Origin: Tachypleus tridentatus
Taxonomy: Eukaryota; Arthropoda; Merostomata; Xiphosura; Limulidae
Direction: 5' to 3'
Assembly (NCBI RefSeq): GCF_004210375.1
Contig: NC_134837.1
Coordinates: forward strand, 164,775,310 to 164,839,309
DNA length: 64,000 bases
Below, piece after piece: positions 15,601 to 63,312 of the stretch; positions within the stretch are counted from its first letter, which is position 1, and each line of letters opens with the position of its first letter. A program made the translations under genes and the position numbers. The notes beneath the pieces were generated by a model that saw nothing but the letters and a program-made list of their open reading frames with translations, did not search any database and was not told the origin of the DNA.

Positions 15601-18600
15601 TGTGAAACAAATTGCAAGGATTCAACTTGTTTCTTCAAATAATAGTTACCTGATCATGTTATGCTTTTTTTATGGTATGAATTTTATATGTACCTTGTAA
15701 CATGAATGACTGACTTTCTGGAAGTTAGTGAGGGATTTGGCTTACTTGAAAAACATCCCAGAAGCAGCACTGCTGCCATGATTTGACCTTCTAGTCTTCT
15801 TGATGGCTTTATTCTGATTTGTGGCTGTTTTCATTCTGTACCTCAGTTCCCATTCTTTAAACTATATTCTCTGTTTGGGTGGATCCATTAACTTTTATTT
15901 TCATTTATGATGAATGCCTTTTTGTTTTTGTCTTTCTCTGACTGAGGCATTTCATGGTAATCCAGGGGAATATTTTCTGGAGAAGTTTGTTCTTTTAATG
16001 TTATGTTAACCCATAATTCTTCTTCTGTTCCATACTTCTTTATTGGTTCTTGCCCTCTAGTAGCACAGCTGTATGTATATGGACTTACAATGCTAGAAAC
16101 TGGGGTTCAGTACCTGTGGTAGAAAGAGCACAGATAGCCCATTGTGTAACTTTGTGCTTAACTTCAGAGAAATAAAAATATTTGGTTCTTCTGTTGCTGG
16201 ACTAGTTGGGATGGGTTGTTCTTCTATTTGGTATAGGTGCCCATTACACTGCTATCTGTAATTTTTGTCAGACTCCACTTTTTGTCCAGAGGTCTTTGGT
16301 GGTGTATCTAATTCTTTGAAGACCCAGACTGTTGTGGCCTGGCTTCAGTCCTCATTGTCTCCTATGGTTTTTACTCCTTTCTCATTTTTATCATTCTATT
16401 TCTGTTCATAGTCTTGCTAAATCTGTATCTCACCTATCCACCCATCTACTTTCTGCACTACCAAGTGTCAGAGTTTTCAGTGATTTCACTGCCAGCTATA
16501 ACCCTGTGGGAAGTCATTTTTCTTTCCTTGTCAGCCTTTGATTTTCGTTTTGAATATCATGTGATGTATTCAGGTACTCACCAGCAGATTATCTTGCCAC
16601 TAATTTTTTTTTTTCCCACTGTTCCCCTTTGTTTTTGATGTTGAAAAGATGGAACCTCAAATTACTTTGCTGAGAATACCATCACATGAGCATTTATCCT
16701 TATGCCTAATTTTATCCTAGGCTTTTTGTGTTTTCAAGAAGACTAAATTTGGAACTGTTGACATTGTACTGTTTTTTTTTTTTTTATCATTCCTTGGTTC
16801 TGTCTGGAGGGTATCTTCCCACCAGTAAAAACTGTGGATGACTATGACCTTTTTTTTTTTTTTTTACACCTGATTGTCTTGTCCTTCAGAATATTTTTCT
16901 TCATTTTTGTCAATTGAAATTGGATATTCTATTTCTGTATTCTTCATTTTAGCTCTGTGCCTACTCCTTTGTTCTTTCCTTGACTCATGGGGGCATTTGC
17001 TCATCTTGTTCTTGGGTTAAGACTGGAATTCATGTTTTACATGATTTAATTTGATCCTTTTTGCCCTTTCTTGGGGTCATTCCCTTTCCAATGTTGGCAT
17101 TCTCCTGCAGTGCAGGAGGACTGCTTGTCTGAACTAGCTTGTCACACCTTCCAAATCTTTTCTCATTTGTACCTGTGTTTGGTACATGTGGGCATGTTTT
17201 CTACTCTTATCTCACTTGGGTTAAACCTTCTTCACTTTGAAGGGACCATAAACTCCATTACTCATAAGCAGTTGATGTTTATTGTTTCCACATTGCATAC
17301 AAAGATCTTTTACTTTTGGAACATGTGTATTTCCTTCTACAATTCATTCTTTTTTGCTGTGTTTACACGTGCCTCTTCAGTTGATAGCTACTGAAGCTGT
17401 CGTGCCCTTCTTTGGACTTTTGTCCTTTATTTCCTCCTTTCAGTATTTTGTTTTGGCAACTTGACTGTGCCAATGTAGCATTTCCTTTCTGTCCCCTGAC
17501 TAGATATTCAATGCTTTTTTGATTCTGTATTGTCAAATTGTATGTGGGGACAAATTCTGAATGAATACTTGATGTATGTAGAGTGTTTTCCCTATTTCCT
17601 TTGTATTATTGTGGATCAGTTAGTTAGGATACACTATATATATTTCCTAATAACTTTTTTTTTTCCCCTCCAAGATTTGGATCTCCTTTTATTTTATTGG
17701 GTTTTTCACATGTCTAGTTATGCACATGGGGCTTCATACATTTAAGTTTGTTTCTCTTGCCCTAACAAGGTTCTATGTTTTACTCTCTACCCTGTGGTTA
17801 AGTTTATCTTCAGTTGGACATGCTTCTCATCATGACATTTGCTACTTCCTACTCCAAACTTTTCCTCTTCTCAATTTCATTTCCTTATCCTTTGGCCATA
17901 TTAGCTGATGTTTTTAACCAGGATAGGTCTTTATTTTTCTCTCTACTTATTCTCCTATATGTCAGGTCCTGTTGATGATGTTTTTTTGGCAGGCTTAACT
18001 TTTCCCTGCTCCTTCATTTGACATCCAGCCTTCTCTTTTTCTGCCCCATTCCTCCTCTCATGCTCCAACTGCATCTCTTTCTGTGTCCAAAGGATATGGT
18101 TTCTTCATTTTCATGTGTCAGGTGTGTCCAGTCCTTTTCCTGCAGGACTTTTAGATTCTCTGATTGTGTCCTTTTTCTGATCCATTTCTGTCATCCATCA
18201 GTTGTATTGAAGTGTTTACCTTAATTCAGCCATCTCTTTCTTTCTCTGGGTCATGTTAATATGGCCCATCTTTTTGGCCTTTTCCACTTGGTTGTTTGAA
18301 CATGATTTGCCAGTTTTACACTTGATGATTTTTGTGCAGCTTTATCTTTTGTATTTTGCATTACCAGTTGTGCTTTGGTTTTCTTTTCTTGTCTCTTCCA
18401 CTTTATTCTGATACTTCCTTTTTCACTGACTCTCTTGTCCTACTCCATGCACTACTGGGAATTTGTTAGTATCCATGCACTTCCCTTGATTCCATCGTAG
18501 CTGTTAACTTCATATTTATTGTTTAATCTTTCTTCTCTTTTGTGCCTGTTGTTGTTACTCAGATGCCTATGCACTGTCACCATGCTTTCTTCCTAATACA

Positions 18601-21600
18601 TCAGCTACTGGGTAAGTGGTCATTCTTTCACATTCCTGTATATTAAATTAATCAGCTGTATCATGTTCTTACATAACATTCCCATTGATCCTTTGAGAGA
18701 TAATTCAAACTGCCATGTTGCTGTTTTCACACATTTATCTCCTTTTGTTTTCATCTTGTTTCATATCCTGCAAGGTTTCTTTTCTCTCCATTGCTGTTTT
18801 TCACTTCACTTACATACTGTTTTCTTTTTTAAGGCATTTTCCCTTTCCTTAGATCTTGCCATTTGACTGGTGTTGCTTCCCAGGGTGTGTTTATTTCTGA
18901 AAATCTGCATCAGACCAAAGGTAATGGAACACACTCGGCTCTTAACTCTACTAGTGCCCACTATGAAATGGGATGTTCAGTAAGACTACTATAGTTATCC
19001 TTATAGTTTACAATTTTACTCATTTGTCTAGTCAAGACTATACCATTTTATTGGGCTATCATGGAAAACTCAGCATTGGGAAAGTGACTGTCCACTCCTT
19101 TAGCTCACACTTACCCACTTTAAAAATATTGTTTTGTGGTCACTCATTGCATTATTTCCACCCAGAGATTTTTTTCCAGTCAGTAGTTGATGGAAATCCA
19201 AGCACTTCCTCAAATCCTCCCAATGTGAGTTATTCCCTCTCATCTTCAAGTAGAGCAATGAAGGACCATGCCACTTATTTTTTCCCCATCAGTTTTGGCA
19301 GTAGACCTTGGAAATTCCTCACTGGTTGTACTGAGCTTGATATGGTGAGAAGTAGGGTAATGGTGATGCTGTCATTGTAGTGTAGGTCACTCATTACACA
19401 GCTAATGTGCCATTCTGCAGCCAGATCTTGCTTAGTAGAGTTGAGACAAGCACTTACTATACAGTTTATTTGCACCCTAACCACACCACATTTTGGCTGA
19501 CTGGTCACTTGTGTGCAGGTGCTTGGTTGGCCATGTTTGTATTTTGTTCATCTGTGTAACACTTTCAGCTGTTCTACCTTTTCCACCCCTTTCAACTTGG
19601 GCAAGTAGTGTACTCTGCTTGACACAAGATGTCATATCTCATGGACATGCCCCTGTGGTCTCCTGCTGTTGAGTGTCACACTCTGCTAGGCTTAAGTTTA
19701 GCACTAGTCCATCTACCACTTTAACTTGGGATTCTAGAGCATCACTCTGTGTGGAGGCAGTGTATCAATTTGAAAGTTAACATTTCCTGTACTTAAAATG
19801 TAATTTTGATAGATTCTTGCCTCTTCACATATTCTTATTTGATCATCCAACTCCTGGTGCATCTTTGTTTATTTTTACCTGGTCTAAGAATGAAGTTACT
19901 TCTAGCACAAGTGTGTAAGGGGATTTACTGTGTGTGAGGTTGTGTTGCCCTCCTGTTTGTCATTGTGCATTAGAGCAGTTCCCACAAAACATGAGTTTAT
20001 GTTGGAGTTAGCTCAAGGGAGATGTGCAAAGAATATGGCAATTCTATTTGTATGGGTGAACATCTGTTGGAAATATGTTTTCAGTATAGGAAAATACTAA
20101 CTTTTTTACTAGTTGCAGTGAAATTAAGGGTTGTTCATTGGTGTCAAAAGTGGAATTGAGACAGTACTTTAAAAATTTGAAAACAAGTTCAGATATACAA
20201 GTAAACTAGTTATTTTTTGTGTGCATAGAACTTGTATTCTTCTATTTTGTATACAGATACCTTATACTCTAAACCTGATTTCTGAATAAGTTAGTCTGCA
20301 TAATTTCATATTTCATCATTTTTAAAATTGTAGACAAAAGAAAAGTTACAAGCAATTTACACAAATGTGGTTTAGAAAATTGAATAGTTTGTGATGACAA
20401 GAAACCCACTTGAAGTAAAAATGTATTCTCAAGATGGCTGGTATGGGTATTTTAAACTTAAATTAAATGTTGTTCTATACTTTATTTTAATTAAAGTTTT
20501 AATACTCATACCAGCATTCTTGAGAATACAAAATTGAATAGTGTCAACTATTTGAATTTGCTGTAATATATTTCAAAATTATTAACTGTACTGAAGTTGC
20601 CATCTTTTTCAAAATCATTATGAAGAATTTGGTTCCAAAATTAGACCAAATTTGGTATTTTTGTTGCTATTCTCTTTTATTTAGTATGGGTGTTGTTGAA
20701 ATAAATGTTTATTATTATTCTTGTCTGCAGAATAAAAGGTTTTTGCCACTTGACTTATTGTCTTGTTGAAAACCCATTTTGGATATGATATTATTTGATG
20801 GTGCTTGTATTTGAAGAAATTGTAATAAAGGTTGAGAACATGGAGGAATACAATTTTGTGTGTTTATACATAAACAACAAATACAAATTGTTTAGGATGG
20901 TAGTTTTGATTTAACTGTTTAAATTGTGTAAAACATTTTGACACATTAAAGTAGTTTAAAAAGTAATTTTTTATCAACTTTTTTTTTCCCCTGCAGAGGA
21001 CCATCTCGACCCCTTCCAACAGAACCTCCATACACGGTTTTTCTTGGAAATCTCCCACAAGGCATAGTACAAGGTGATATTGATGAAATATTTAGCGGGT
21101 TAAAAGTAAGTAAATGTGTGTGAAATAAAATTTTGTTGTAAACTCTGGAATCCCAGTTTCTATTAACTTTACCAACACGAGTCTTCCTATAGTCACAGGT
21201 CTAAGGCTTTGTCATTACATTTGTAGGTTCACATTCAAAGTTTTATTGAACTATTATTTTATTAATGTATGCCAAAATGCTTAGTATCACACTGTAGATT
21301 ATAATTTAAATTTTAATATTATACGTTAGTTAATTTATTAATTTTAAAAGTAAATATTATAAACAATTCCAAATATGAATATTTGTGTCACACAGTATGT
21401 TGAATGCAGCATTACTTCGAAATAGATATTTGTGATGTTGAACTACAAAGACTGTACCTTATTATGAATACCTTGTCAAATTAGCAATACTGATATATTA
21501 GAATATAAGATAAGAACTTACTATATTTTCTAGTGTCTGATTCTGAGATATTAAGATATTTAATGAATCAAGCAAGATGGCTCCTTCCACCTTTTCCATT

Positions 21601-22058
21601 TTTTGTAAATACTTGCTTAAATATACTTGCTTCCCCCAGTGACATGTATAACTAATCAAAAGCTCAGAATGTTCTCCTAGTGGTTTTCTCAGCCTGCATG
21701 AAGTACTTGCAAAGAAAACTTTATGCTAGATTCCCAGTGGTAAAGTAAGACATTAGTGTGCTTGAAAAATATTTTAGACCCAAATACAGCTGGGTTATTA
21801 AGCTTGATAAATTATAATGGAATTCTATGACACTGATATAGTAATTTTTTATTTCAAAATGGATATATAAATCTTTAAAAAAATATTTTGTTTTACATCC
21901 TCCACTTGCAAAATTTTATAAAGTTTAGCAACTTGCAGCAAGCAGCAAATGAGTACAAAGTTCATAACTATAAGAGATAATATTCTCTATGTCATTCACT
22001 GTTCTGTGTTTTAAGAAAGAAAAAATAAAATTTAAAAATTTATTTGTGATTAGTAATA

Positions 22059-22101
<43 letters not shown>

Positions 22102-25100
22102 GCTTATAACTGAAAATGTGACACTTTTAAAAAATACTTCTCCACTACCCCTCGGTGTGGATTCCTGTTCGTGGTGAGGGGACCTCCTAGGGAATGTTCT
22201 GTTCTTTCATTTTACCTCCTCTGGGATCTAAACATCCACCCGCGTGTTTGCTGTGCTAGGCGACCCGTGAAGGGGAGGAGAGGATCCTGGTAGTTGAGGA
22301 GTCCAACCCTAACACACCACTTTGGCCTTGAAATCCTGTAGATGGGCGGCTTTTGGGTGGCTCCCCTTGGGTCATTCGGCTGGTCCACTTGGGCTAGAGT
22401 CAACAAGGCTAATCAAGTAACAGTGTTGGATGTTTTCAGTGGGTGTTGTGGACATTGTGTCTGATGCTGGTGTTTGGGTATAGTGCTCACGAAACTCTGG
22501 CATTGCTGCAATATCCTTGCATGACATTGTAGTGCATCCCCTCGTAGGGCTCCATGGTGGGTGGGGTCAGTGAAATTTTCCTTTTATCCTATGGATCCTC
22601 CAACAAAAAATGTAAATAAAATAGTGAAAAAACAGTCAATAGGTAAACAACCACATCTTGAAGACTCTGAGCAGCAATCTTCAACATCTGTAACACCTGT
22701 ACCCCATTTTCTTATATTACATTCTCTTTCAGAAAAACCTTTAGGGCAAATGTCCCTCTTTTTTATTCAGAAGAGACTAGAGGGACTTGCTGGCTCTCCA
22801 AAGTCAGTAAAGAAGCTTCAATCTGGAGACATATTGGTTGAAACATCCACATCCCAACACAGTGAACTCTTGAATTCAAAGGCAATTGGGGATGTACCAA
22901 TTGAGGTTACCCCTCATGCTACCTTGAATTCATCATGAGGAGTTATTGTTGAGAGGGACTTGAAGAATGTCCCCGAGTCAGAGATTCTTGCTGGTCTCTC
23001 CACTCAAGGAGTTTCTACAGTGAGGCGCATCTCCACTCGCAAAGATGGAGTTACACTGCCAACAAATACTCTCGTTTTGACATTTACTTCATCACGTGCA
23101 CCTGCCACCATAAAGGCAGGTTATCTCATTTGCAGGGTACGGCCGTACATTCCAAACCCTCTCAGATGTTTCCAATGTCAGAGATTTGGCCACTCAAAGA
23201 CATCATGTCGTGGTTCCCTGACATGTGCTTATTGTGGTGGCAAAGACAATGATGCCTATGAGTGTCACACGGACCCACATTGTGTCAACTGCAATGGTTC
23301 CCACCCTTCTTACTTTTGTTCTTGCCCAAAATGGTTGGAGGAAAAAGAGGTGCAGCATTTGAAAACGACCCATAACATTAGTTATCCTGAGGCTCGCCAC
23401 TCCATCTTGGACATATGCTGCTGCACTTCGTTCCACAACTACAGTGGGAGTGTAGACAGATCTCTCTGTACCTCTAAGAGAATCGTTTTCAAAACAAATG
23501 AAAAGCCTTTTGACCTCCATGATTAAAAAGGTTGATGAATCGACTTCTACACCCATCTCCGTTCCTCCCATACAGTCCAACAAATCTCAAGATCCACATC
23601 CTTCGGTTTCAAATACAGGCATTTCTTCTGATACATCCTTTGCTCCAACCCCACGATGCAAAACTATCATTTGTTCGCATCCTCAGTCACTGGAATCCCC
23701 TTCCAACAATATAGACCTGCCCAATCAACCCAGGGCAGGATCCATGGGGGTCGATAGACCTCCTCCGTATAAGGACAGTAAGTAAAAAAGACGTGGTCAT
23801 AAACAGAAGGGTTCTCCAGCCACTTTGCCTACCGGTCATTAAAAATGGCTACATTGATACAATGGAACTGTCGAGGTTTACGTTCTAATCTGGACGATAT
23901 CAAAACATTGAGTGCTTCCTACCATCCTGTATGTCTTTCCTTACAAGAAACATTTTTAAAACCTGCTGATACAGTCACCATTCAGCAGTTTTCTCTGTAC
24001 AAAAATGACAGGCTGTGTGATGGACAAGTACATGGAGGGGTGGCACTGTTGGTTGATCAGCATGTGCCCGCCCTGTCTTTGTCACTCAACACACCCTTGG
24101 AGGCTGTAGCCATCCGTGTTTCCTTGGGTCATACCATCACTGTTTGTTCTCTGTACCTGTTCCCTGGAGAGACATATGATCAATGAGACCTTGATGCTCT
24201 CGTTGAACAGTTGCCGTCTCCATATCTAATCTTGGGGGACTTTAATGGACATCATATCCTCTGGGGAAGTGCTGTTATTGATAGGAGAGGTCGCTCTGTA
24301 GAGCGTATGCTCTCTGATCACAATCTTTCTCTTTTCAATACTGGTTCTTCCACTTATTTTCATGCACCTAGTCAGTCCTTTACCGCTTTTGATCTTTCGG
24401 TTTGCTCCCCTTCATTATTTCCCCATTTTTCATGGAGGGTTGACAGTAATCCACTAGGTGGTGATCATTTTCCTGTACTTTTGAGAGAGACTGGCCGTGG
24501 TTGATGCCAACCTTCCCATGTGCCTTGGTGGAAACTGGACCAGGTAGACTGGTCCACTTTCACTGCTCTCGCAGAACTTGATCCTGCCATCATGAATCAA
24601 CTATCAATAGATGACTGTGTGGCGGCAGTAACTGACTGTATTATACAAGCAGCTGCTCAGTGTATTCCTAAAACCTCGACACGTTTTCCACGATATCCTC
24701 GTCCATGGTGGAATCTTGCTTGCCACTTGGCATGGAAGGCTCAAAAACAGGCCTGGGTTACTTTTGTAGATATCCCACACTTTCGAATCGCATCGCTTTC
24801 CAATGGGCTCGTGCAAATGCTAGGTGGGTAAGATATCAAAGCCAGAAGGAATCTTGGATTAAGTTCACAACTAGCATATCTTCTACCACCAGTTCCAAGG
24901 TCATATGGGACAGGATTCGAAAGGTTGGTGGGCACTACAATTCTGTCCCCCTCTCCATCTTGCTCTCTGATGGCCAAGAGGTAGCTGATGTCCAGAGCAT
25001 CGCCGATACTCTAGGTGAAAGCTTTTGCTGGGTATTTAGCACTTCTGCTTGTTCCTCCACCTTCTTGGCCATTTTGACTATAATTGTCCCTTTACACTAG

Positions 25101-28100
25101 TGGAACTGAAAATGGCCCTTCATCGGTCTGGCAGTACATCTGTTGGACCTGATGATGCACACTATGACATGCTGTGCTGTCTCTCTCCTGCTTCTCTTGA
25201 TATTCTTCTACTTGTTTTTAACTGGATCTGGCAGGAGAATGTTTTTCCTGATGCCTGGCACTAGGCTATTACCTTACCCTTCTCTAACCTTGGAAAGATC
25301 CCAAGATTCCTTCACACTACCGTCCAATTGCTTTGACGAGCTGTCTCTGTAAGACCTTAGAGAGGATGGTTAATGCTTGTCTTGTTTGGTTCCTCGAATC
25401 AAACAACTTTCTCTCGCCCACCCAGTGTGGGTTCCGACGACAGCACTCCACCACAGACCACCTAATTCGTCTGGAAACATCGATCAGAGAAGGCTTATGA
25501 CACAACATGGAGGTATGGCATTTTGCGAGACCTCCATACATATGGGTTATGTGGCCATTTACCTATGTTTATTAAAAATTTTTTAATGGACAGGAGATTC
25601 CAAGTTCGTGTGGTTTCGACACTTTCCCATTCTTTTGTACAGGAACTTGGGGCCACTCAGGGCTGTGTTTTGAGTGTCACATTTTTCATTATAAAGATAA
25701 ATGCCATCACTGAACAACTTTTTCTCACTCTAGCAAACGGGCTCTATGTTGACAACTTTCACATCTTGTGTCAGTCATCGAATATGAGATATCGTGAGCG
25801 GCAACTACAAACTGCCCTCAATCGTGTACTGAAGTGGACTATGGCGATTGGCTTTAATTTTTCTCTCTGTAAAACCGTTTGCATGCACTTTTGCCACCAA
25901 CAGGGTATCCACCCTTATCCTGAACTCCATATCAGTGAAGTTTCGCTGCCAATGGTCCCTGAGACCAAGTTCTTGGGGCTTATCTTTGACCGTAAGCTGA
26001 TCTTTATACCACACTTAAAGCAGCTATGGGTCAAGTGCACAAGAGCGCTGAACATTCTTTGTGTCCTCTTTACTGCCAGTTTGGGAGTAGATTGATGTTC
26101 TATGTTAAAGATATATCGTGCTCTTATTTGTTCAAAATTCGACTATGGACCAATGATCTATGGCTCTGCCAGATCCTCGGCCTTAAAGATGCTGGACCCC
26201 ATTCATCATCAAGATCTTCGACTCTGCACTGGGGCTTTCTGCACCTCATCAATTCAGAGCTTATATGTGGAATCTCACAAACCTTCTCTGCACCTTTGCC
26301 GTTTGCAACTGTCTTTGCTGTATTCTTCGAAACTTCGCTCCTTACCACAGCATCCCACTTGGGGATGTGTATTCCTTCCTCAGTGGGCCTTACTTTTTCA
26401 AAACAGACAATCTGCGATTACTCCTTTTGGTCTTTGCATCCATGCACAATTGGATGAATTAGGTCTGTCCTTGGAAAGAATTGCAGAATCCACTGGTCAG
26501 CCCATCCCCCCCCCCCCATGGCTTATTACAGTCCCCAAATGTGACCTTTCTTTAAGTCATCTGAAAAAGGCAGATACTCCCGATTGGAAGTACCGTCTTT
26601 TATTTAATGAACATCTTTCGAACACCCTTTCTATTCCAATTTATACGAATGGTTCAAAATCAGATGACTCTGTGGGCTCTGCCATGGTTTGTTGCAGTTC
26701 GGTGCTTGCGTGCAGAATCCCCTCTACAGCTTCTATGTTCACTGCTGAACTGTATGCCATATCTCTTGCCCTGGATCATATTGAAGCTGAGCAGTACTCC
26801 GACTGCACTATTTATACTGACTCCCTTGGAATCACTTCACCTTGGCTCACACCCTGTTCTCGCTGATATTCAAAACCGACTGGCCCATTTCTCATTAACA
26901 TCTACTTCTATCCAGTTTTTCTGGATACCAGGCCACGTTGGTATTCGTGGGAATGTGCTTGCAGACATGGCAGCTAAATCTATCTGCTCTGGCACTATCA
27001 TCACTGTGCCTCTTACGTACATGGACTATGGTCCTGTATTCTAGGCTCGGCTCCGTGTCAGCTGACAGTCCACTTGGAGTGAACAACATGACAACAAGCT
27101 TTTCTGAATAAAATCCTATATTGGGCTTTGGCCGTCTAGCTTCCGTAAGGTTCGGAAGGAGGAAGTTGTTCTAAATAGACTACGCATTGGTCACAGTTTT
27201 TTAATTCATCGTTTTGTTTTATCTGGAACTGATGCACCAGTCTGTAGTTTGTGTAACACTCAAATCACTGTAGGCCACATTTTACTTACCTGCCATCGTT
27301 ACGACTCTCAACGAAGGCACTATTTTAAACGTGTTCTGTCCCAGGGTTTGTCTTTGACATTGGACAGTGTTACTGGTGATGGTGACACTGTCCACCTTGA
27401 TAAAGTTTTTAGTTCTTTAATGGCCATTAATCTTTTTAACCTCATTTAAATGTTTGACATTTATTCATTACACCATTTTAATGGTGGTCCCTTTTCAGTC
27501 TCAATCTCTCTAGTTCAATTTGACATTGTAAAATGGCCAGAACATTAAATAACTCGACACCAGGACTGGAAAGGCCAACTTCAGGTGATTAATGCTGCTG
27601 TTTGAACTACCCATTAGTTGTCCTGGCGAGTTGTTATTACACTTTTGTTGCATGTCATTTAACACTTTTATTACTTTACCTTTTAGTACTGGCCATTATG
27701 ACACATAACCCGGAACCAGGACTGGAAAGACCAAGTTCAGGTGACTGACGGTGGTTCTTGTACTTACCTGTTAGTTTTCCTGGCGTGCTATGATCATTAA
27801 CATTCTGCTACAGGAAGTCCTTTACAACTTTGTAGACTGGATGTTAACATTGGTTTTATGCCATTTTATGTTTTGTTTATATCTTTGTTTCCTTTTACAA
27901 ATTTTACTACATTTACTTCACTTTTACCTTTTTTACAGGACATTCGGTTACTTTTTATTATGATTTTGTTATATGTCTTTTAACACTTTTCTTATTTTAC
28001 CTTTTGATAATGGCTGTTATGACAACATAACCCAGAACCAGGACTAGAAAGGCCAAGTTCAGGTGACTGATGGTGGTTCTTGTACTTACTTGTTAGTCTT

Positions 28101-49100: not shown

Positions 49101-52100
49101 ATTATGGTGATGTTTAGAAAGCAGGCTCCAAGTATTTTAATGTTTTCATTAAGACTTGGTTTAATATAACTTTATGATGAAAGTAGCAAAATTTTGAATG
49201 AATACTTTGAGCTTCTTCAGTGTCAAGATTACTGTTCGATATATTTACTTAGCATCTTAAATGGTAGTTACTGTAACATGATTGACATTATTTTATAAAG
49301 TTTGTGCTAGATGAAATATGCACATGTCCAGAAATCTTAAGGAACTGTAATTTCCAAATACAATAAAGTAATTTTAATCATCATATAAAATTTGTTTGAG
49401 AGGTAGGTGAGTTTTATATAACTTTGGACAAATAAAACATTACAGAATCTTAATGAATTTTTTTATATATATACTCTGGGTACATAGCAGAATAAGTTTT
49501 TAATTAGAAGTGACTATAACAGAATGTATGTATTTTTCTTTAATTGTGAAAAAAATATAAAATTTTATTTTCAAAATAACTAAGTGCTTTATAAATTTTG
49601 AACTATGTATCATTTTGTCTAACAAATTTTAAGGATTTATGTCACATAATCCTCTTCTAGATATGAAAAACAAGTCTTCTGCAGGATGTCCAGAGTACTT
49701 GTTATTTTTGGCATGTCTCAGATAGACAGTAGATTTAAATAAAATGTTTTTGGTCATAAAACATCAGATAGTATTATAACACAGTAGTTGAACAAGCACT
49801 ATTATTATAGGTACTTAGTTAAGTTTTATGATTTTGCTTGAGTATCATATAGGTTTTTAGTTTGGCTTGAGAAAGGTTTCAAATTCTGTTAACAGCAGTA
49901 TTTATTTTTTTCAATTTGAAACTGTTACATTTTTTTCCTTGTGAGTAATGTGTGTGTGTGTGTGTAATGAAGCAGTTTCATGAGCCTCAATTGAATAAAA
50001 GGATTTTTAAATATAAATCACCTTGGAGTTGCTGAGCATGAAAACTGAATTCATATTCCATTTTCATCACCAACATACATGTTTTGTTTTATTTCTCAAA
50101 ACTGCTATAACATTCATGCTGGCACAGCCTTAAATCTACTTTAGTATAAATTGTTTATTGTGAAAATCATTTTGATTTTATTAGCAGATGATTTCTTTTT
50201 GTTTCCATTGATAATGTTATGCATCCACTTTTAAAATATTATGTTTATTGGTGTTCCACAAGACAAGTGATTAATTTAGAATATATTACTGAAACAGTTG
50301 AAAAGATCAGAAAACGGGTACAATAAACAACTTTTTTATATTACTTACTAAATGACTTAATATTTGGATTAATATTGCAGTGCAAATTAGCCTAGACTAA
50401 AAGTGTCAAGTTTCCAGAATCTTGCATTTATATTGGTACTTTATTTTTGAATTTATTTGACATATATTTTTTTAACAATTTCTGTTGATCTCTCAGTTGA
50501 ATTACTGTAGAATATACCCAAAAGGATTTCATTGCACTGTTTTGTGACATATATCATAACATTCAGATGATAAACCCTTGGTGTGGATTCCTGTACATGG
50601 TGAGAGGGACCTCCCAGGGAAGGTTCTGTTCTTTCAGTTTACCTCCTCTGGGATCTAAACATCCACTCACGTGTTTGTTGTGCCTGGTGACCCTTGAAGG
50701 GGAGGAGAGGATCCTGGTGGTTGAGGGGTCCAACCCTAACATGCCACTTTGGCCATGAATTCCTGTAGACAGGCAGCCTTGGGGTTGGTCCCTTTTGGAT
50801 CAATCGGCTAGTCCACTTGGGCTAGGGTCAATCAAGTTCCAGTGTTGGAAGTTCTCATCAGGTGTTGTGGACATTGTATCTGATGCTGGTGTTTGGGTAT
50901 AGTGCTCACAAAACCCTGGGGTTGCAGCAGTGTTGTTGTTTCACATTGTAGTGTGTCCCCTCGTAGGGCTCCCTGGTGGGTGGGATCAGTGGGCACTGAA
51001 ATTTCCCTTTTTTATTATGGATTCTTCAAATAGAAATTTAGATAAAATAATGAAAAAACAGTCCATAGGTAAACGACCACGTCTTGAAGTTTCTGAGCAG
51101 CAATTTTCAACATCTGTAACACCTGTTGTACCTCATTTTCTTATCCTTCATTCTCTTTTAGACAAACCTTTAGTGCAAATGTCTCCCTTTTTCATTCAGA
51201 AGGAACTAGAGCAACTTGCTGGCTCTCCAGAGTCAGTAAAGAAGCTTTGATCTTGTGACATATTGGTGGAAACATCCTTATCTCAACATAGTGACTTTTC
51301 TTGAGTTGAAAGGCAATTGGGGATATACCTATTGAGGTTACACCTCATGCTACTTTGAATTCATCACAAGGAGTTATTGTTGAAAGGGATTTGAAGAACA
51401 TCCCCTAGTCAGAGATTCTCGCTGGTCTCGCCACTCAAGAAGTTTCTGCAGTGAGGCATATCTCCACTTGCAAAGATGGAATTACTATGCCGACCAATAT
51501 CCTTGTTCTGACATTTACATCGCCACGTCCACCTGCCACCATCAAGACAGGTTATCATAATTGCAGGGTACAATGTTTGCAGTGTCAGAGGTACGGTCAC
51601 TCAAAGACATCATGTCATGGTTCCCTGATGTGTGCTTGTTGTGGTGGCAAGGACCATGATGCCTATGAGCATGAAACGGACCCTCATTGCATCAATTGCA
51701 ATGGCTCTCACCCATCCTACTTTTGTTCATGCCTTAAATGGTTGGAAGAAAAGGAGGTGCAGCTTTTGAAAATAATTCATAATATTAATTATCCTGAGAC
51801 TCAAATTGCTATCCACAGCTTCATCTCAAATGTATGCTGCTGCACTTTGTTCCACAACTACAGTGGGGGTAGAAACAGATCTCTGTGCCTCCAAAAGAAT
51901 CGTTCTCAAAACAAATGAAAAGCCAACCCTGCCTTTGCCACTCGACGCACCCTTGTAGGCCATAGCCATCTGTGTTTCCTTGGGTCATACCATCACTGTT
52001 TGTTCTCTCTACCTGTTGCCTGGGGAGACAAATGATCAATCAGACCTTGATGCTTTTATTGAACAGTTACTGTCTCCCTTTTTAACCCTAGGGAACTTTA

Positions 52101-55100
52101 AAGAACATCATCCCCTTTGGGGAGTGCTGATATTGATGGGAGGGGTGCTCTGTAGAGTGTATGCTCTCTAATCACAACCCTTCTCTTCTCAATACTTGTT
52201 CTACATATTTCCAAACCCCTAGTCAGTCCTTTACAACTGTTGATCTCTCAATTTGCTCCCTTTTATTATTCTCCCATTTTTCATGGACGGTTGACAATAA
52301 TCCACGAGGTAGTGATCATTTCTCTATAATTTGGAGAAAGACTGGCCATGGTCGATGTCACCTGACCCACGTGCCACTGTGGAAACTAGGTCAAGCAAAC
52401 TGGCTCTCTTTCACTGTTCTTGCAGAACTTGATCCTGCCATTATCTGTGAGTCATCAGTAGACTGACTGTATTATACAATCAGCTGCTCAACACATTCCT
52501 AATACCTTGACATGTTTTCCATGATATTCTCGTCCATGGTGGAATCCTGCCTGCCACATGGCACAGAAGGCTCAAAAATGGGCCTGAGATATTTTTTGTA
52601 GGTATCCCACACTCACATTGCATCGCTTTCCAGCAGGCCCATGCATATGCTCGGTGGGTAAGATATCAAAGCCAGAGGAATCTTGGATTAAGTTCACAAC
52701 CAGCATATCTCCTACCACCAGTTCCAAAGTCATATGGAATAAGATTTGAAAGGTCAGTGGGCAGTATAATTCTGTCCTCCTTTTGTTCTTTCTCTCTGTT
52801 GGCCAGGAAGTAGCTGAAAGTAGGTGAAAGCTTTTATTGGGTATCTAACACTTCTGCTTCTTCCTCCACCTTTTTAGCCATCAAGACTTGGGCAGAGCGA
52901 TCACTTCTTTCCTTTTGAGCTGATTGTCTCTATGTTTATAATCATCCCTTTTACACTGGTGGAACTCAAACTGGCCCTTCATCTGTCTGGCAAACATCAG
53001 TTGGACCTAATGATACACACAAGGAAATGCTGCACCATCTATCTCCTGCTTCTCTTGTTCTTCTGATTGTTTTTAACTGGATCTGGCAGGAGAATGTTTT
53101 TCCTGATACCAGGTGCCAAGCTATTGTCCTACCTTTCCCAAAGCCTGGGAAGGATCCCAAGATTCTTTCAAACTACCATCCAGTTGCTTTGATGATTTGT
53201 TTCTGTAAGACCTTAGAGAGGATGGTTAATGCTTGTCTTGTTTGGTTACTTGAATCAAACAACCTCCTGTTGCCCACCCAGTGTGGGTTCCAATGAGGAT
53301 GCTCCACTGTGGACCACCTGATTTGATTTGAAACGTCAATCGGAGAAACCTTTCTCAAACAACAATATCTTGCATCAGTATTCTTTGACATTGGAAAGGC
53401 TTATGATACAACATGGAGGTATGGAATTTTGAGAGTCCTCCATATATATGGGTTACAGGGCCATTTGCCCATTTTTATTAATTTTTTTTAATGGACAGGA
53501 GATTCCAACTTCATGTGGGTTTGACACTTTCTCATTCTTTTCTACAGGAACTTGTAGCCCTCAGGGCTGTGTTTTTATGTTGCAAGGTGCAGTATCAAAA
53601 CAATGCCATCACTGAACAACTCCCTCTCACTGTTGCAAACAGGCTCTATGTTGACGACTTTCACTTCTCATGTCAATTGTCAAACATGAGGTATATCGAG
53701 CAGCAGTTACAGCCTGCCCCTCAATTGTTTACTGAAGTGGATCACAGCAAATGGCTTTAATTTTTCTCTCTCTAAAACTCTTTGCATGCACATTTGCCAC
53801 CAATGGGGTATTCACCCTGATACTGAACTCTGTATCGGTGAAGTTGTGATGTCTGTGGTTCTTGAGACAAAGTTCTTAGGGCTTATCTTTGACCATAAGC
53901 TGGCCTTCATATCACACATCAACTAGCTATGGGCCAAATGTATAAGAGCACTGAACATCCTCCATGCTGTTTCTTCCACCACTTGGGAAGCAGATCGATG
54001 TTCTGTGCTAAAGATATATCGTGTTCTTATTTGATCAAAACTTGACTATGGTTCACTGGTTTGTGGCTCTGCCAGGACCTTGGCCTTAATGATACTGACC
54101 CCATTCATCATCAAGGACTCCAGTTTTGCTCTGGGGCTTTCTGCACTTCCCCAGTTCAGAGCTTATACAGAGAGTCTCATGAATCTTCTTTGCACCTCTG
54201 CCATTTGCAACTGTCTTTACTATATGCTTTGAAACTTTGTTCCTTACCAGAGTATCCCACCTGGGGTTGTTATTTCCTTCCTCTGTGGGCCATATGTTTT
54301 CAGAACAGATGATCTGCCATTGCTCCTTTTGGTCTTTGTATCCAAATGCAGTTGGATGAATTGGGTCTGTCCTTGGATAACATTGCTGTTTCCACTGGTC
54401 AGCCCATCCCACCATGGCTTCTTGCAGTCCCCAAATATAACCTATCTCTAAGTCATCTGAGAAAAGCAGACACTCCTGATTGGAAATACTGTCTGCTATT
54501 TGCTGGACATCTTTCAAACCATCCTTCCATTCCTACTTATACAGATGGTTTGAAATCAGGTGACTGTGTGGGTTCTGCCATGGTTTGATGTGGTTCAGTG
54601 GTTGCATGCAGAATCCCCTCTACAACTTTTGTGTAAACTGCTGAACTGTACATCATTTCTTTTGCCCTGGATCACATAGGAGCTAAGCAGTACTCAAACT
54701 GCACTATTTATATTGACTTGCTTAGTTTTCTACTGGCCCTGGAATCTCTTCACGTTAGTTCACACCCTGTTCTTGCAGATACTTAAAACCAACTGGCCCA
54801 TTTCTCTTTAACATCTACTTCTATCCAGTTTTATTGGATACCGGGCACACGTTGGTATTCACGGGAATGAGCTCTCAACACTGCAGCTAAATCTATCTGT
54901 TTTGGCACTATCACTGCTGTGCCTGTTCCATACATGAACTATGGTTTTGTATTCAAGGCTCGACACCATGCTAGCTGGCAGTTGACTTGGAATGAGCAAT
55001 GCAAAAACCAGATTTTTAAATAAAACCCTATATTGGACATTGGCTATCTTGCTTCCGTAAGGATTGGAAAGAGGAAGTTGTTCTAATTAGACTACGCATT

Positions 55101-58100
55101 GGTCACAGTTTTTTTAACTCATTGTTTTCTTTTATCTGGAACTGATGCACCAATGTGTAGTCTGTGTAACACTCAGGTCACAATAAGCCACGTTTTACTG
55201 TCTTGCTGTCATTATGACTCTCATTGATGGAACCATTTTAAACATGTTTTGTCCCAATGTTTGTTCATAATGTTAGACAATGTTATTGGTGATGGTGACA
55301 CTGTTCACCTTGATAATGTTTTTGGTTTGTTAAAGGCCATTAATCTTTTTCATGTCATTTAAGTGTTTTAAATTTATACATTGAACCTTTTTTAATGTGA
55401 TTCCCTTTTAAGCATCAAAGTCCATCTAGTTCAATTTGAAATTAGAAAATGGCCGTAGCGTTAAATAACTCAAAACTAGGACTGGAAAGGCCAACTTCAG
55501 GTGATTTACAGTGGTTTTTTTACTTAGCTGTTTGTCTTCCTGGTGAATTATGATAATTACAATTATGCCACAGAAGTCCTTTACAACTTTTTTTTACTGT
55601 AGTTTTTCTTTTAATGTTATGGACTAGATGTAAACATTAGTTTTATGCTATTTATGTTTTATTTTACTTTAATTTCCTTTTATGAATTTTACTAAATTTA
55701 ATTTTAGAATTTTTATGGGATGTTTAATGCAGATAGCCCAGCTGCTTTGTGCAATAAAACACCAAACCAATCAACCAAACCTCTCTTCACCTCCATGTTT
55801 ACATCTTTTATTTGCAGTATCCCATTAAACTTCAATTTTTACCACATCATCCCACCTGGGGTTGTGTCCTCCTATCTCAGTGGGCCGTGCTCTTTTGGAA
55901 AAATGGTTTACTCTTCTTCCTTTTGGCTGAGTTAGATCTGTCATTGAATGATGTTACTGTCTACAGATCAGCCCATTCCACTATGGCTTATTACCACCCC
56001 TACCTGTGACCTTTCTTTAAGTCTTCTGAGGAATGCTGATACTCCCGATTGGAAGTACCATCTTTTCTTTCCCAGACATCTTTGATCTGTTCTTCTATTT
56101 CCATTTATACAGTTGTTTGAAAATCAAATGACTCTGTGGAATCTGCCATGGTTTGTTTTGACTTGGTGGTTGCTCACAGGAGATCCTCTACAGGTGTTTG
56201 CATTCACTGTCAAGTTATATACCAATTTTGTTGCACGGGATCATGTAGAAGCTATGCAGTACACAGATTATACAATTTGCACTGGCTCTCTCAGTTCTCT
56301 ACTGGCCCTGAAATTGCTTATCGTTATTTCTCGTTAATATTAAAAAATGACAGGCTGTTTTCTTTATCTTCTATTCATATCTATTTTTTATAGATTTCTT
56401 GGTTACTTTGGTATTTGCAGGAAAGAGCTTGGTGATGCTTTGCATTTAAGTCTGTCTGCTCTGGTGCCATCACAGGCTTTACCTGATGGAACCTTCTGTC
56501 ATTCTTTGGCTGTCTTGTTTCCATTAGGATTGGAAGAAGGAAGCTGTCTTAACTAGGCTACACATTGGTCATAATTTTTTTAACTCATTTTTTTTCTTTT
56601 ATGTGGGAATGACCCACCAATGTATGACCTTTTGTGACACGCCACAACAGCTCATGTTTTATTTTTGTTCGGTTGTCACAACCATAAGTGATGGCACTAT
56701 TTTAGGTGCATTTTTCCTATGAGTTTATCCCTGATGTTGGACAGTGTCATTGGCAATGGTAACACTGTTCAACTTACTTGTATTTTTTAACTTTATGTAA
56801 GTCATTGGGTTTTTTATTTCTGTTTAAACCTTTTATCCAAATTTTGGACATTATTTCATTTTAACTCTCTTTATTTTTATATTTTTTAATATTTTTACTT
56901 TTACGCGTTTACGATTTATTTGGCACAACCATGCCAAGTTGCTTTGTGCCAATAAAACACCAACCAACCTTGAATACGTGAACTGAATATTGTATGTAGA
57001 TATTTTTTGCACAAGAGTTTGTGTTAAATCTTTTGACCATGTGTGCAGGATTTATTATTACAATTCTCCCAGGAAGTTATTTATTTCAAGTTTTCAGTTG
57101 TTTTATTAATAAGATTGTGTACAATTAAGTTTTTTTTTCTTCATTATTTTAATTTTGATAGACATACAGTTTATCCATTACATATATTTTATAGCATACA
57201 ACTTAATTGAAATTTAAATGTAGTTTTTAATATTTTTCACTGGGTAACAAAATTTAATTTAAAATATTTTTATTATTTAGTATAAAAAGACTATAGACCA
57301 AAACTGTTTATAAGTATTCTTGTAAATTTATGCTAATGCCAGAAATATTCAGTTTGTCATATTGTGCTAATAATGTCTGGCAAATTTATTTTTCTTTGTT
57401 TTATTGTAATAAGAAGCATTTTGGATATTTTTTCAGCAGCCTGCAAAGAGGAATATTTCTCAAATTATTATCTGAATTACAGCTGCATATAACAATGAAG
57501 TGAAAATTTGGGTGATAAATTTCAGTACGTAATTTGTGTTGTGTATTTATTAGTGAATGATGGTGTGCTCGTCTAATTTCATCATAAGATACATTTCAGG
57601 TTTGCACTTCATATTTTACAGTATAGAACACACAGTTATTTTCCTAGAATGTGTGTTGTATTTAACAGTTATTATGAATAACATTTACAAGTGAAATCAT
57701 TTCTGGATCAAATTTTTGTCTTGCAGTTTTCCACTGATATGTCAGTTAAGAGATTTAACTGAAATAAGAATTACTATACATGTATGTAATTCATAAGTAT
57801 TTTAATGTAAATACTTTAGATATCAAATTTAATTTATTCTAGAGGCTAGTAATACAGTTGCACTCATGGAAGTTAATTTGAAAGACAATTTGATAATAAG
57901 CATGATTTATTGTAAATATTAGCACTCGGGCAGCTTGTCACATTGATGTCTTTTTTACTTTTTCGTTTTGTCATATAAGTGTGTATGTGATTGCACAAGC
58001 ATCTAATAAATTGTAGTGCTACTTATATAGTATACGAAGCTAAAATTAAGTTGTCTCTTTCCATAATGCAGGATTTGATCTTTGCTGTGTATAACACAGA

Positions 58101-59537: not shown

Positions 59538-59940
59538 AGCCTTCCTTAGGAAACTTTCAGTTTAGTGCTGGGAGAAGATTCATATCTATGGACTGCCTTT
59601 TTTCAGAGGTAGACAGATGTTATCTTATGTGGTTAATTTTTGTTCAGTGTGGCTTTCATCTAAGGCTCGTGGGCCGACCTGTGTGCACAGCAGCTGTACA
59701 TAGCATAGCTCACCTCACATGCATCATGGTGTCAGATCAGCATTGATTGGAAAAAATTTGGTCTGAATCTATAATGCTGCATTCTTTGTTATAATAAGCT
59801 TTGTTTTTAAATGTCTTAGTTTACTGAGTGACGTCCATTGTAGTTTTGATGTAATAAATATTATTTTGTACTGTGATGTTTGAAATCAGCTACATCAAGT
59901 ACTTGTATATCTCATGGTCCAAATAAAAAATAAAATAAAA
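59538..59940 (+). promoter_or_regulatory. eIF4H 3'UTR with poly(A) signals
   Basis: Follows the stop codon. AATAAA hexamers occur at 59853-59858 and 59922-59927, the second followed by more A-rich AATAAA-like units to about 59940. The transcript probably ends shortly after one of them. Confidence 0.6.
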
Positions 59941-60073
59941 TCAGATATGTCTCTCAAGGTTTATCATGAGAGAAAAGTCTTTTTTGAAATAAGTTTTTAA
60001 ACTAACATGTCATCACAGATATAGTATTAATAATTTTAGTTTCATCTGTTTATTTTCACATATCAGAAGTATC

Positions 60074-60190
60074 TCCATCTGCTAATACAGCGGTAAGTCT
60101 ACGGATTTACATCGCTAAAATCAGCAGTTTGATTCCTCTTGGTGGGCTCAGCAGATAGCCCGATGTGGCTTTGCTATAAGAAAAACACAC
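60074..60190 (+). mobile_element. tRNA-derived SINE (tRNA-Val-like type)
   Basis: CAGCGGTAAGTCTACGGATT then TACATCGCTAAAATCAGCAG and TTTGATTCCTCTTGGTGGGC form the tRNA-like head, with box B near GTTTGATTCC. The tail CAGCAGATAGCCCGATGTGG then CTTTGCTATAAG has an AGCA/TGCT stem, followed by AAAAACACAC. Confidence 0.8.
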
Positions 60191-61921
60191 TCAAAAGTAT
60201 CAACTTTCTCTTAACACTTTGTTCTTGCCAGAACAGAACTTCTTGTTTGAATCTTTATACACTCTGTATTAACTTATTATAAAGCATCATCTTTGCCATT
60301 GACTTTAAGAGATTTCTTCTTAACATTATGTGCATAGGAAAACAGTTTTGGAAAGCTAATTTCTATACATTGTAATTTATTAATGAAAATATAACAAACC
60401 AGAACATTACCAGTTTGCAGATGAGGTTATTTGTAAGGAGGTGTTTACAGTTCAGATAAATTGAGGAATTTTGAACAGTAATTTGTAGATGATGATATCA
60501 TTAGAAATATTATAAACATAAACACTGGTTTCAAATTGAAACCAAAGTATGAAGTATGAGTGAGGAGATAGCATCTCTGAATATTAAGTAATGGTTTGGA
60601 CATGAAATGTAATATGCACAGAGGAGTAAGTGCACATTATAAGAATGATTTTCAAATGTTATTGCAGTGTGACACTAGGGTGACTCGTTTTGCACTTTTT
60701 TACATCGGTAAATTACTGATCATTTGATAGTTCAGTGCCATTAAAGTCTACTTTTCTGACTAGAGAAGTATTACACTCTTAAGAACTATTTTTATAATGA
60801 AATTTTAAAGTATACAAAGTCAAAGGACACAACATTTTAAAATCTTCTATGTGCATTTTTTTCTTCTTCCGTTACAGTGCATTTAGAACAGAATAGTGCT
60901 ATAAAACCATAATACAAATCAATCCAAAGAAAAGTCTGGATTGCTTTCTTTCCACTGCCTTGAACCGACCAGACTTTTTCTGTTGCTTTTTTCTGAAACT
61001 ACCTTCACTGTGTCAATCTTTACGATCACCCAATATGAAACAAAAACTAGGAAAATCTAATTTTTCAATGCATACATCAAAATTCTATCATGAGCATGGC
61101 AAAGGGGGATATAAATATCCCTGAACACCCCAGTTGGGAAGTTCATCTTCCTTTAAAACTAAATACCTGACACAAAATTTTCTTTTTCCTTCAAAGAAAA
61201 GTCCTTATTTGGATAGTCTAGGCTGTGGTTACAAAGGAAAAACTTTTCCAACCAAAAACAAATCATTGTGGTGAAGCTGAGCTTATTTTATGGTACAATA
61301 AAAAATAAGTTTTCTAAGCATTTGCCAAGAACTTCTGTCCATACCTGTAGAACAATGACCATTTTCATAAAAAAGATGTCTGAATTTTAAATCACTACAA
61401 ATATGCTTAACCACATACCTGCCAAGTTACTTAATGCAGGTCCTGTGACTTTATGAATTTTGTTTCGCATGCGTGAACTTCACTATCTGTAGTGTAACTT
61501 ACTTAATCGGACCAAAGAATTTTCCTTGTTTGATCATTGTACAAAGAGATGGTTCAGGTTTTCTATGCACTGATAGTTATAGTGCATCACAGATTTGTTA
61601 ATGATGTGAGAATTCTCTCTCATCAGGTAGCATCATCATACGTAGATAAATAATTTATTGGTGAAAGTTTTGAGGTGACTAATCACACACGAAGTGATGT
61701 CGTTGACACTAGTGGTTAAATCATTTGAACATGTGTGCCACACATGCGCTGTTTTCTGTTGATCGAACCAATTTCAACCTTACTTACCTTGTTAACTTGG
61801 AACACGAACAGAAAACGTGCCTCGTGCTTCCTACTAACCGCCTTTTAAAACAAGTGTAGGCTTGGAGGACTAGACACACTGGCCCTCTGGCATCTTATGA
61901 TAAGGTTATGGAGTGCTTGAT
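60191..61921. other. Downstream of eIF4H, nothing firmly recognised
   Basis: AT-rich to about 61400, then moderately richer in CpG to 61990. That change may mark the promoter side of the candidate exon at 61922. No ORF of note. Confidence 0.4.
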
Positions 61922-61993
61922 ATGATGAATGATCCTTTGCCGAAAGTGAAGAATGTGAAACCGGTTGTATGCCGCTCGTCCTGTTCAATGGCG
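61922..61993 (+). CDS. Candidate first coding exon of an unknown downstream gene
   Basis: Tandem ATGs at 61922 and 61925 open a frame of 24 codons (MMNDPLPKVKNVKPVVCRSS and four more residues) ending exactly at a strong donor, GCG then GTAAGTA. The flanking 500 bases are CpG-richer than the intergenic background. I do not recognise the peptide and no following exon can be placed before the window ends. The short length means chance is a real alternative. Confidence 0.3.
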
Positions 61994-62354
61994 GTAAGTA
62001 AAATAATGTATGGCTACCATTTGGGGTTTCGGGCTGTTGGTAACAGATTGTACTTATTAAAATATACATATAATTCGAATTGCTTGCATGTGTAAATAGA
62101 TGATAGATAACAGTGTTAACTCATTTTTTTTGTGTTTTAAATTAATAATGAGGTAAAAAAAATTGACGATGTTGTGATTCCATTGCTAGCTTACTTGCGA
62201 AATATATACAGGCACGGTTAGCACATTTCTTTGTTAACTAATCGTTCACACTGAATCATGCCGAAGCTTACAAACATTAATATTAACCTTTCACCAATAA
62301 AGTTCAAACAATTAAATACAGTATTCATAAGTACAGATGTAACATTTTAGGTGT
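61994..62354. other. Intergenic or intronic sequence, nothing recognised
   Basis: AT-rich; would be the first intron of the candidate gene if the exon at 61922 is real. Confidence 0.4.
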
Positions 62355-62608
62355 GGGCCTGGCATGGCCAAGCGTGTTAAGGCGTTCGATTCCTAAACTG
62401 AGGGTCGCGGATTCGAATCCCGGTCGCACCAAAACATGCTCGCCCTTTCAGCCGTGGGGGCGTTATAATGTGACGGTCAATCCCACTATTCGTTGGCTGA
62501 GGGTGGTGATGACTAGATGTCTTCCCTCAAGTCTTACACTGCTAAATTAGGGACGGCTAGCGCAGATAGCCCTCGAGTAGCTTTGCGCGAAATTCAAAAC
62601 AAACAAAC
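62355..62608 (+). mobile_element. tRNA-Thr-derived SINE, well preserved
   Basis: GGCCTGGCATGGCCAAGCGT then GTTAAGGCGTTCGATTCC and box B GGATTCGAATCCC form the head. ACATGCTCGCCCTTTCAGCC begins the body. The tail GCGCAGATAGCCCTCGAGTA then GCTTTGCGCGAAATTC has a GCGCA/TGCGC stem, followed by (CAAA)n. CpG sites are retained, so it is younger than the copy at 13522. Confidence 0.9.
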
Positions 62609-62972
62609 GTTTTAGATCTTAACAGTTAATAAGATATAGCAATATTTAAGTGTATGGCACACTTGAAGCTGTAACACTCTTCCAGTTAAAACCTTTTTGC
62701 CATCCTTGTATTAGAGAACTAGTTACAAAAACGTTTTGAATATTAACATAATTTACATATATGAAAACTTGGTAATATTTGCCAATCTAACGTGATTGTA
62801 AATTAAAATAATTTGGTGTATGTGATATACAGAATTTAGTTTTGAATTAATACAATTCGCGCGTTAAGTGTGGTTTGTTGTGTAGCTTTAAAATATTAGT
62901 AGGGGTTACGATTAGAACAGCAGATACAAATATCCTAAAATATACGCTTTACAACCTAGATCACATGCACCA
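62609..62972. other. Sequence between SINEs, nothing recognised
   Basis: AT-rich; no supported feature. Confidence 0.4.
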
Positions 62973-63090: not shown

Positions 63091-63312
63091 TACACATATG
63101 CACCAAACACCTCCATAGTATGTAGGAAACTAAGAATATGTACACGAAATTCACAAGCCAACAAATAACAATACTCTGAAACACTAATGAGATGAAATAT
63201 TTGTTGAGATCACTGGGATTATTTCTGCTTTAGGATTGAGAAACTCACCCAAAGATTATTAGAAGTACCAAAAATAGTTTATAAATACTCTAACGCATAA
63301 AACACAAACATA

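Follow-up and report, generated by a model that had tools for sequence, protein, structure and literature searches.

In a 64,000-nucleotide stretch of the Tachypleus tridentatus genome (contig NC_134837.1, positions 164,775,310 to 164,839,309 of the forward strand, hereafter the window), three abundant families of short interspersed elements (SINE1, SINE2 and SINE3) and an I-like long interspersed element (LINE) end in one common hairpin that is able to pair, a result supported by consensus sequences and by searches with tail models. The tail shared by the families, its pairing in their consensuses, a stem change on both arms in SINE2 and target-site duplications at part of the copies are observed directly. 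We propose, with a probability of roughly 0.7, that a LINE reverse transcriptase (RT) recognizes this tail and starts copying from it.

The 3′ hairpin in SINE and LINE tails

The hairpins of the window and the SINE copies that carry them are the following.

28278..28305, + strand: hairpin of LINE copy A, GGCACA (28278-28283)-GATAGCTTAGCTGCGT-TGTGCC (28300-28305), then ATAAAACACTAAATCAATCAATCAA; 21 genome relatives
41362..41389, + strand: hairpin of LINE copy C, ATCACA-GATAGCCTAGTAGCTT-TGTGCC, two outer pairs decayed
55726..55753, + strand: hairpin of LINE copy D1, AATGCA-GATAGCCCAGCTGCTT-TGTGCA, decayed
56920..56952, + strand: hairpin of LINE copy D2, TTGGCACA (56920-56927)-ACCATGCCAAGTTGCTT-TGTGCCAA (56945-56952), loop without GATAGC; relatives L071-L076
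16052..16178, + strand: SINE1 copy, hairpin 16127-16158 (AGCACA 16127-16132, TGTGCT 16153-16158), duplication TTGGTTCTT at 16043 and 16182
2925..3065, − strand: SINE1 copy with hairpin AACACA/TGTGCT (2983-2952), in which one pair is broken
12736..12877, − strand: SINE1 copy with hairpin AACACA/TGTGCT (12794-12763), in which one pair is broken
62352..62605, + strand: SINE2 copy, tRNA-like head, hairpin 62560-62588 (GCGCA 62560-62564, TGCGC 62584-62588)
13518..13792, + strand: SINE2 copy, decayed hairpin GGGCA/TGCGT at 13747-13775
60072..60194, + strand: SINE3 copy, hairpin 60150-60175 (AGCA 60150-60153, TGCT 60172-60175)
62972..63093, + strand: SINE3 copy, hairpin AGCA/TGGT at 63049-63074, duplication ATGCACCAA
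46002..46118, + strand: decayed SINE3 copy, tail CAGATAGCACAACGTGACTTACTATG

A first-pass annotation of the window had described three SINE types that share the 3′ layout of the LINE, and this description extends to whole families. In consensus tails built from 47 SINE1, 122 SINE2 and 27 SINE3 copies the stems pair in all three, as does the stem of the LINE A consensus, which was read by eye from 20 ends fetched out of 39 other copies among 40 scored. For the older LINE lineage, related to D2, six ends out of 39 were fetched, and the stem of its tail pairs as well. Loci L001, which overlaps the window, and L021, which overlaps L046, were left out of consensus building and of the hairpin scan, coverage and duplication counts given below; only L001 was left out of the search with the LINE tail model.

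SINE1 tail consensus: AGCACA-GATAGCCCATTGTGTAGCTT-TGTGCT-TAACTACAAACAAACAA
SINE2 tail consensus: GCGCA-GATAGCCCTCG(T/A)GTAGCTT-TGCGC-GAAATTCAAAACAAAC
SINE3 tail consensus: AGCA-GATAGCCCGATGTGGCTT-TGCT-ATAAGAAAAACACAC
LINE A tail consensus: GGC(G/A)CA-GATAGCCTAGCTGCTT-TGTGCC-ATAAAACACTAAATCAATCAATC
Older LINE tail, for example L072: GGCACA-GATAGCCTAGTTGCGT-TGTGCC-AATAAACACCAAACAAACAAACAACC

In the common layout an outer stem encloses GAU, an inner AGC/GCU helix with its loop, and a U that precedes the 3′ arm; the segment that had been described simply as a loop contains this second short helix (AGC/GCT, or AGCC/GGCT in SINE3). GAUAGCC and GCUUUG are invariant across the family consensuses. When folded in isolation, the hairpins of SINE1, SINE3 and both forms of SINE2 adopt one minimum-energy layout, consisting of the outer stem with a G.U, a two-base bulge and the inner helix; for the LINE hairpins folded alone, a longer fold is possible.

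The stem sites previously given for LINE A and the three SINE types are exact. The extended stem attributed to LINE D is present in copy D2, but it begins at 56920, 10 bases away from the 56930 given before, and the statement that every loop begins with GATAGC fails for D2, whose loop is ACCATGCCAAGTTGCTT. This loop is probably private to the D2 copy, since three of its six fetched relatives carry GATAGC at the loop start. The LINE 3′ ends at 41362-41389 and 55726-55753, whose stems are decayed, had been overlooked.

In searches the likeness exceeds chance. When the four LINE ends of the window were combined into a tail model, it detected SINE2 tails in other parts of the genome with E values down to 2e-6, and the pattern CAGATAGC-N13-TTGTGC, with at most 3 mismatches allowed, yields 10 matches compared with 4.34 expected, a number that none of 100 shuffles reached. 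A scan for GATAGC..GCTT hairpins found a stem of at least 5 pairs in 23 of 70, compared with a permuted mean of 11.2 (maximum 20, 1000 permutations), and this result supports a shared hairpin although SINE2 dominates it. An Rfam search at gathering scores gave no match, nor did a pattern scan of viral contigs.

Under the mechanism that we propose, the 3′ end of a LINE lineage of the I group would form an RNA hairpin. Its outer stem would have about 6 pairs and enclose, in order, a GAU that is unpaired or bulged, the inner AGC/GCU helix with its apical loop, and the U next to the 3′ arm; a short tandem repeat rich in A would come after the stem. The enzyme of this lineage presumably binds the hairpin, and SINE RNAs that had acquired the tail would be taken as templates by it. 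Insertion at staggered nicks would then leave duplications of about 8-14 bases, and the letters of the stem could drift while the ability to pair was kept.

The bodies of the SINEs bear on how many independent cases this represents. Consensus lengths are about 120 bases for SINE1, 270 for SINE2 and 115 for SINE3, and in the window the SINE1 and SINE3 models each detect copies of the other family along most of the length (E 1e-7 to 3e-12). Their heads are therefore related, and the two families are not independent witnesses for a partnership with the LINE. The SINE2 consensus contains GGTTCGAATCCC, which we take to be B-box-like, and similar motifs occur in SINE1 and SINE3; ARAGORN reported no tRNA in the SINE consensuses or in the window. 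Because tails can descend with SINEs when heads are shared, as in SINE1 and SINE3, and because A-rich repeats end all three SINE tails, one might suppose that a relaxed, L1-like enzyme reads only the A-rich repeat and that the hairpin is a relic passed among SINEs. We regard this as improbable, however, since the place and layout of the hairpin are constant in three SINE families and in the LINE.

Stem pairing and CpG decay

The stems had been said to change in pairs, the example offered being the step from GGCACA/TGTGCC in the LINE to GCGCA/TGCGC in SINE2. We rejected that step as a clean paired change because it is largely CpG decay. Of 22 ends of the LINE A type (window copy A, L041 and L051-L070), 8 have CG at the CpG site of the 5′ arm, 8 have CA and 4 have TG, with two others (L061, and L067, which is without the arm), whereas the 3′ arm is TGTGCC in all but one (21 of 22), the exception being TGTGCT. 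Given a variable 5′-arm CpG and a nearly constant 3′ arm, the source of the LINE is most simply reconstructed as GGCGCA/TGTGCC with one G.U at pair 3, copy A then carrying a CpG-decayed GGCACA. From such a source, the step to the SINE2 stem would be one change, from G.U to G-C, and not a paired one.

Paired change is nevertheless present inside SINE2, the largest of the three families, where pair 3 went from G-C to A-U: both stem arms of a SINE2 source changed, and the stem stayed paired. The copies examined show G-C in 53, G.U in 9, A.C in 11 and A-U in 13 (p = 3.4e-4). Since this pair in its G-C form is a CpG on both arms, decay was tested directly over CpG column pairs, and among 757 such pairs the SINE2 pair 3 has the second smallest p but ranks 29th by odds ratio. 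Genome-wide, exact 35-mers gave 58,028 places, with 14,304 G-C, 37,599 A-U, 2,504 broken A.C and, by subtraction, 3,621 G.U. The discordant forms thus number 6,125, compared with about 24,300 if the two arms were independent. The A-U form makes up a large share of the exact matches, which suggests a young age. It lies mostly in the CGAG subfamily of SINE2 (10 of 13 copies examined), and it may therefore derive from a single inherited event.

Across families, the pairing was measured in 75 tails, comprising 16 of 20 SINE1 and 16 of 84 SINE2 tails picked at random, all 14 SINE3 tails (ungapped and complete, as are the others from SINEs) and 29 LINE ends; L041 and L067 were excluded. With a nine-pair structure, 81.4% of 656 cells are paired compared with 75.2% after shuffling, 54 cells are changed on both sides compared with 25.0, and the covariation score is 0.258 compared with 0.172, values as high being found in 0 of 500 shuffles in each case, with a significance that relatedness of the tails inflates. 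If the 3′ arm is slid, the best version pairs only 51.4%. Reduced to five family sources (LINE, SINE1, old and young SINE2, and SINE3), all 20 inner cells pair, and over six pairs 26 of 30 cells do. Two stem pairs that are not CpG sites differ on both sides, namely pair 4, where SINE3 has A-U as against C-G, and pair 6, where the LINE has G-C and SINE1 has A-U.

Several results, here and in the LINE comparisons below, speak against a hairpin conserved for its pairing and recognized by the LINE enzyme. In the 75 tails, pairs with change on both sides number 6 compared with 5.2 after shuffling (210 of 500 shuffles as high), further pair types number 16 compared with 17.3 (431 of 500 as high), and RNAalifold predicts no structure. 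The longer SINE2 tail in its G-C form prefers another best fold, and by the minimum free energy (MFE) of longer tails the SINEs show no unusual stability (z −0.7 to −1.3; the corresponding values are −3.3 and −3.4 for two forms of LINE A and −2.4 for the older LINE). Among the 120 permutations of 3′ arms over the five sources, 12 reach the observed pairing when 4 or 5 pairs are considered, and 2 are as good over six. Many SINE1 stems are broken, the G-C of pair 5 being kept in 18 of 38 copies with both arms. Some SINE2 copies were retrieved by similarity to one copy and are a biased sample; without them the pair 3 counts become 34, 7, 10 and 7, the last being A-U (p = 0.056), and at random loci the association has p = 0.079. 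RNAalifold and longer-tail MFE were dropped as proof of the hairpin, given the lack of a predicted structure and the small SINE z values.

The evidence for covariation between families is thin, and the covariation claim as a whole is only moderately supported. Stem covariation might instead be an artefact that combines CpG decay, copy age and one inherited double change, with no selection involved. Such an origin would suit the CpG on both arms of SINE2 pair 3, the CG/CA/TG decay of the LINE arms, the concentration of the A-U form in one subfamily and the weak family-level permutation result. We nonetheless consider it unlikely, because SINE2 pair 3 stands near the top of the CpG pairs by p, if not by odds ratio, because pairs 4 and 6 are not CpG sites, and because discordant forms reach a quarter of the expectation under independence, a deficit that subfamily descent alone could also produce. 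The earlier conclusion that selection maintains pairing keeps in its favor the SINE2 switch and its few broken forms, but the switch is possibly one inherited event. We infer that selection, rather than one lucky inherited change, may have kept the pairing, yet a single switch of this kind could also have come about by chance passage through G.U.

Possible LINE partners of the SINEs

The LINE copies of the window, with their domains and flanks, are the following.

22148..28330, + strand: LINE copy A, decayed, judged full-length by its ends
22137-22147 and 28331-28341: flush target-site duplication of LINE A, CTTCTCCACTA and CTTTTCCACTA, 10 of 11 bases alike by eye
25466-26095: RT domain of LINE A, RVT_1 (PF00078)
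36997..41425, + strand: LINE copy C, about 71-72% identity to A in aligned parts, absent from the first-pass annotation
37679-38332: endonuclease domain of LINE C, Exo_endo_phos_2 (PF14529)
50575..55780, + strand: LINE copy D1, 75-82% identity to A in aligned parts
55776..56975, + strand: LINE copy D2, older, 68-69% identity to A, only the 3′ part seen, directly after D1

The piece that follows the RT of LINE A (26096-26866) matched no Pfam family. It has 19 relatives, the best being T. tridentatus and scorpion proteins (Centruroides has one), and RNase H (PF00075) was found in all three close relatives that were re-scanned. CCHC-like knuckles were noticed by eye only in 22939-23526, a piece that likewise matched no Pfam family. 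An architecture of endonuclease, RT and RNase H fits the I group, to which this LINE lineage probably belongs; members of that clade resemble the present LINEs in these three domains, in CCHC-like knuckles and in short 3′ repeats. The 3′ untranslated part of LINE A also contains an internal duplication (27631-27830 and 27952-28152, 86% identical), and several genome copies of LINE A match this duplicated part twice.

A single LINE family had been thought to drive all three SINEs, a claim that the comparison of tails does not establish. The repeats after the stem are AATC in LINE A, AAAC in SINE1 and SINE2, and AC in SINE3, and since no SINE shares the terminal repeat of LINE A, we do not assign LINE A itself as the partner. 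The likeness between SINE and LINE 3′ ends spans only some 30-45 bases. In local alignments, the older LINE tail, assembled by eye from the six fetched copies, scores 33 with SINE1 and 30 with SINE2 (0 of 2000 shuffles as high in each case), whereas LINE A scores 21 (23 of 2000) and 27 (1 of 2000). The match of SINE3 is weak with both, at 22 for the older LINE (8 of 2000) and 20 for LINE A (25 of 2000). For SINE1 and SINE2, then, the older lineage is the better match. The exact LINE loop joined to the SINE2 post-stem sequence occurs at no place in the genome.

It is possible, at not far from even odds, that the SINEs were mobilized by other related and partly extinct LINEs, D2-like or unsampled, rather than by the family to which copies A and D1 belong. 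The hairpin would then be a common inheritance with each SINE tracking its own LINE, an alternative that competes only with the proposal of one LINE family. Apart from the higher scores of the older lineage (L071-L076), it gains from the SINE-like AAAC repeats in which one of the six older relatives (L072) ends. It gains also from a genome pattern search in which a LINE-like TTTGGC flank was found joined to a SINE2-type loop at five places, all on the minus strand, which could be the ends of a better partner LINE.

C5:27442897, − strand: TTTGGC flank with SINE2-type loop
C6:23475560, − strand: the same
C8:32858443, − strand: the same
C9:135354506, − strand: the same
C9:135431942, − strand: the same

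On the other hand, the older tail in the exact AAAC form searched occurs at one place in the genome, compared with 1,217 places for the exact LINE A end with AATC, and the older tail used in the comparison is the one assembled by eye. Moreover, GGACG just upstream of the hairpin is common to LINE A and SINE2, which could be chance. Most likely, we infer, several related and partly older LINE lineages served the SINEs, rather than LINE A alone.

Target-site duplications are consistent with insertion by target nicking in both kinds of element but do not single out a partner. Every copy was assigned to its best family and entered once, and a common stretch of at least 8 bases had to be present at both ends; by this count, set beside a shifted control, duplications flank 22 of 62 SINE2 copies (control 5), 6 of 30 SINE1 copies (0) and 3 of 16 SINE3 copies (0). 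For LINE A, the longest exact match found in the flanks by script is TCCACTA; no duplication was found at the flanks of LINE D1 and D2, a further point on the unfavorable side. The duplications of LINE A and of the SINEs, whose comparison had been suggested earlier, are alike in kind, and for this reason they do not tell which LINE was involved.

The window holds further repeats. A 155-amino-acid open frame on the minus strand (33437-33904) with a DDE_1 match (PF03184, E 3.8e-7) is a DNA transposon remnant. The repeats at 2196-2411 and 32693-32902 are 82% identical, and the pair matches itself in inverted orientation as well (75%); these repeats and the 77-base inverted repeat at 63311-63386 and 63839-63915 (88%) are possibly non-autonomous DNA transposons.

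SINE abundance and relation to known systems

In 20 random 10-kb stretches of the genome (L031-L050, nine contigs, matches at E up to 0.001), we counted 52 SINE2, 21 SINE1 and 11 SINE3 copies, and the three families together cover 13,662 bases, or 6.8% of the 200 kb sampled. Extrapolation from this small sample to 2.17 Gb gives about 560,000 SINE2, 230,000 SINE1 and 120,000 SINE3 copies. According to PMC7815833, SINEs are a small part of the T. tridentatus repeats on that study's own assembly, and the words SINE, SINEs and LINEs do not occur in the main text of the T. tridentatus genome paper PMC6390705. Compared with the former account, our sampled 6.8% makes it probable that SINEs are under-annotated in this species. 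Among the titles listed by a literature search, none is on horseshoe crab SINE families, which does not prove them unpublished. Some SINE2 copies (L006 231-282, L048 9123-9171, L046 3254-3321) consist of hardly more than the tail hairpin and the repeats; they are either strongly 5′-truncated insertions or the ends of another element.

A SINE/LINE relationship through a shared tail is of an already known kind, and the horseshoe crab would fit as a further case. In the review PMC3747384, the examples of SINE/LINE pairs with a common 3′ tail are eel SINEs and UnaL2, and tobacco TS and an RTE LINE, the tail being regarded as the means by which the SINE recruits the enzyme of the LINE. The present elements resemble those pairs in the LINE-like 3′ end of the SINEs, the stem-loop and the short terminal repeats. 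They differ from tobacco TS and its RTE LINE, whose tails are described there as nearly identical over about 100 bases and as both having TTG repeats; in the horseshoe crab the tails are alike over the shorter stretch given above and the repeats differ. Another parallel is offered by LINE and SINE tails of the plant L1 lineage, such as those of sorghum SINEs, for which the same source describes a hairpin with a variable stem and compensatory changes, together with conserved letters in the loop and next to the stem, although the LINE clade is another and the conserved letters here are GAUAGCC and GCUUUG. The I element is given with TAA repeats (PMC3747384), unlike the AATC, AACC or AAAC of the LINEs studied here.

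A more far-reaching view, which we think unlikely as a whole, is that what the enzyme recognizes is shape plus some letters of the loop rather than the letters of the stem. One LINE lineage could then serve all three SINEs despite their different stems and arms set 16 to 20 bases apart, and the A-U subfamily of SINE2, the most successful of its recent clients, would have risen after a compensated change. Under that view the three SINEs would account for about 7% of a genome in which published annotation lists few SINEs. More generally, our findings would add a chelicerate case, with a LINE probably of the I group, to the SINEs that share the 3′ hairpin of a LINE, and they suggest that SINEs are under-annotated in horseshoe crabs. 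The tens of thousands of natural stem variants present in this one genome offer material with which the pairing rule may be tested.

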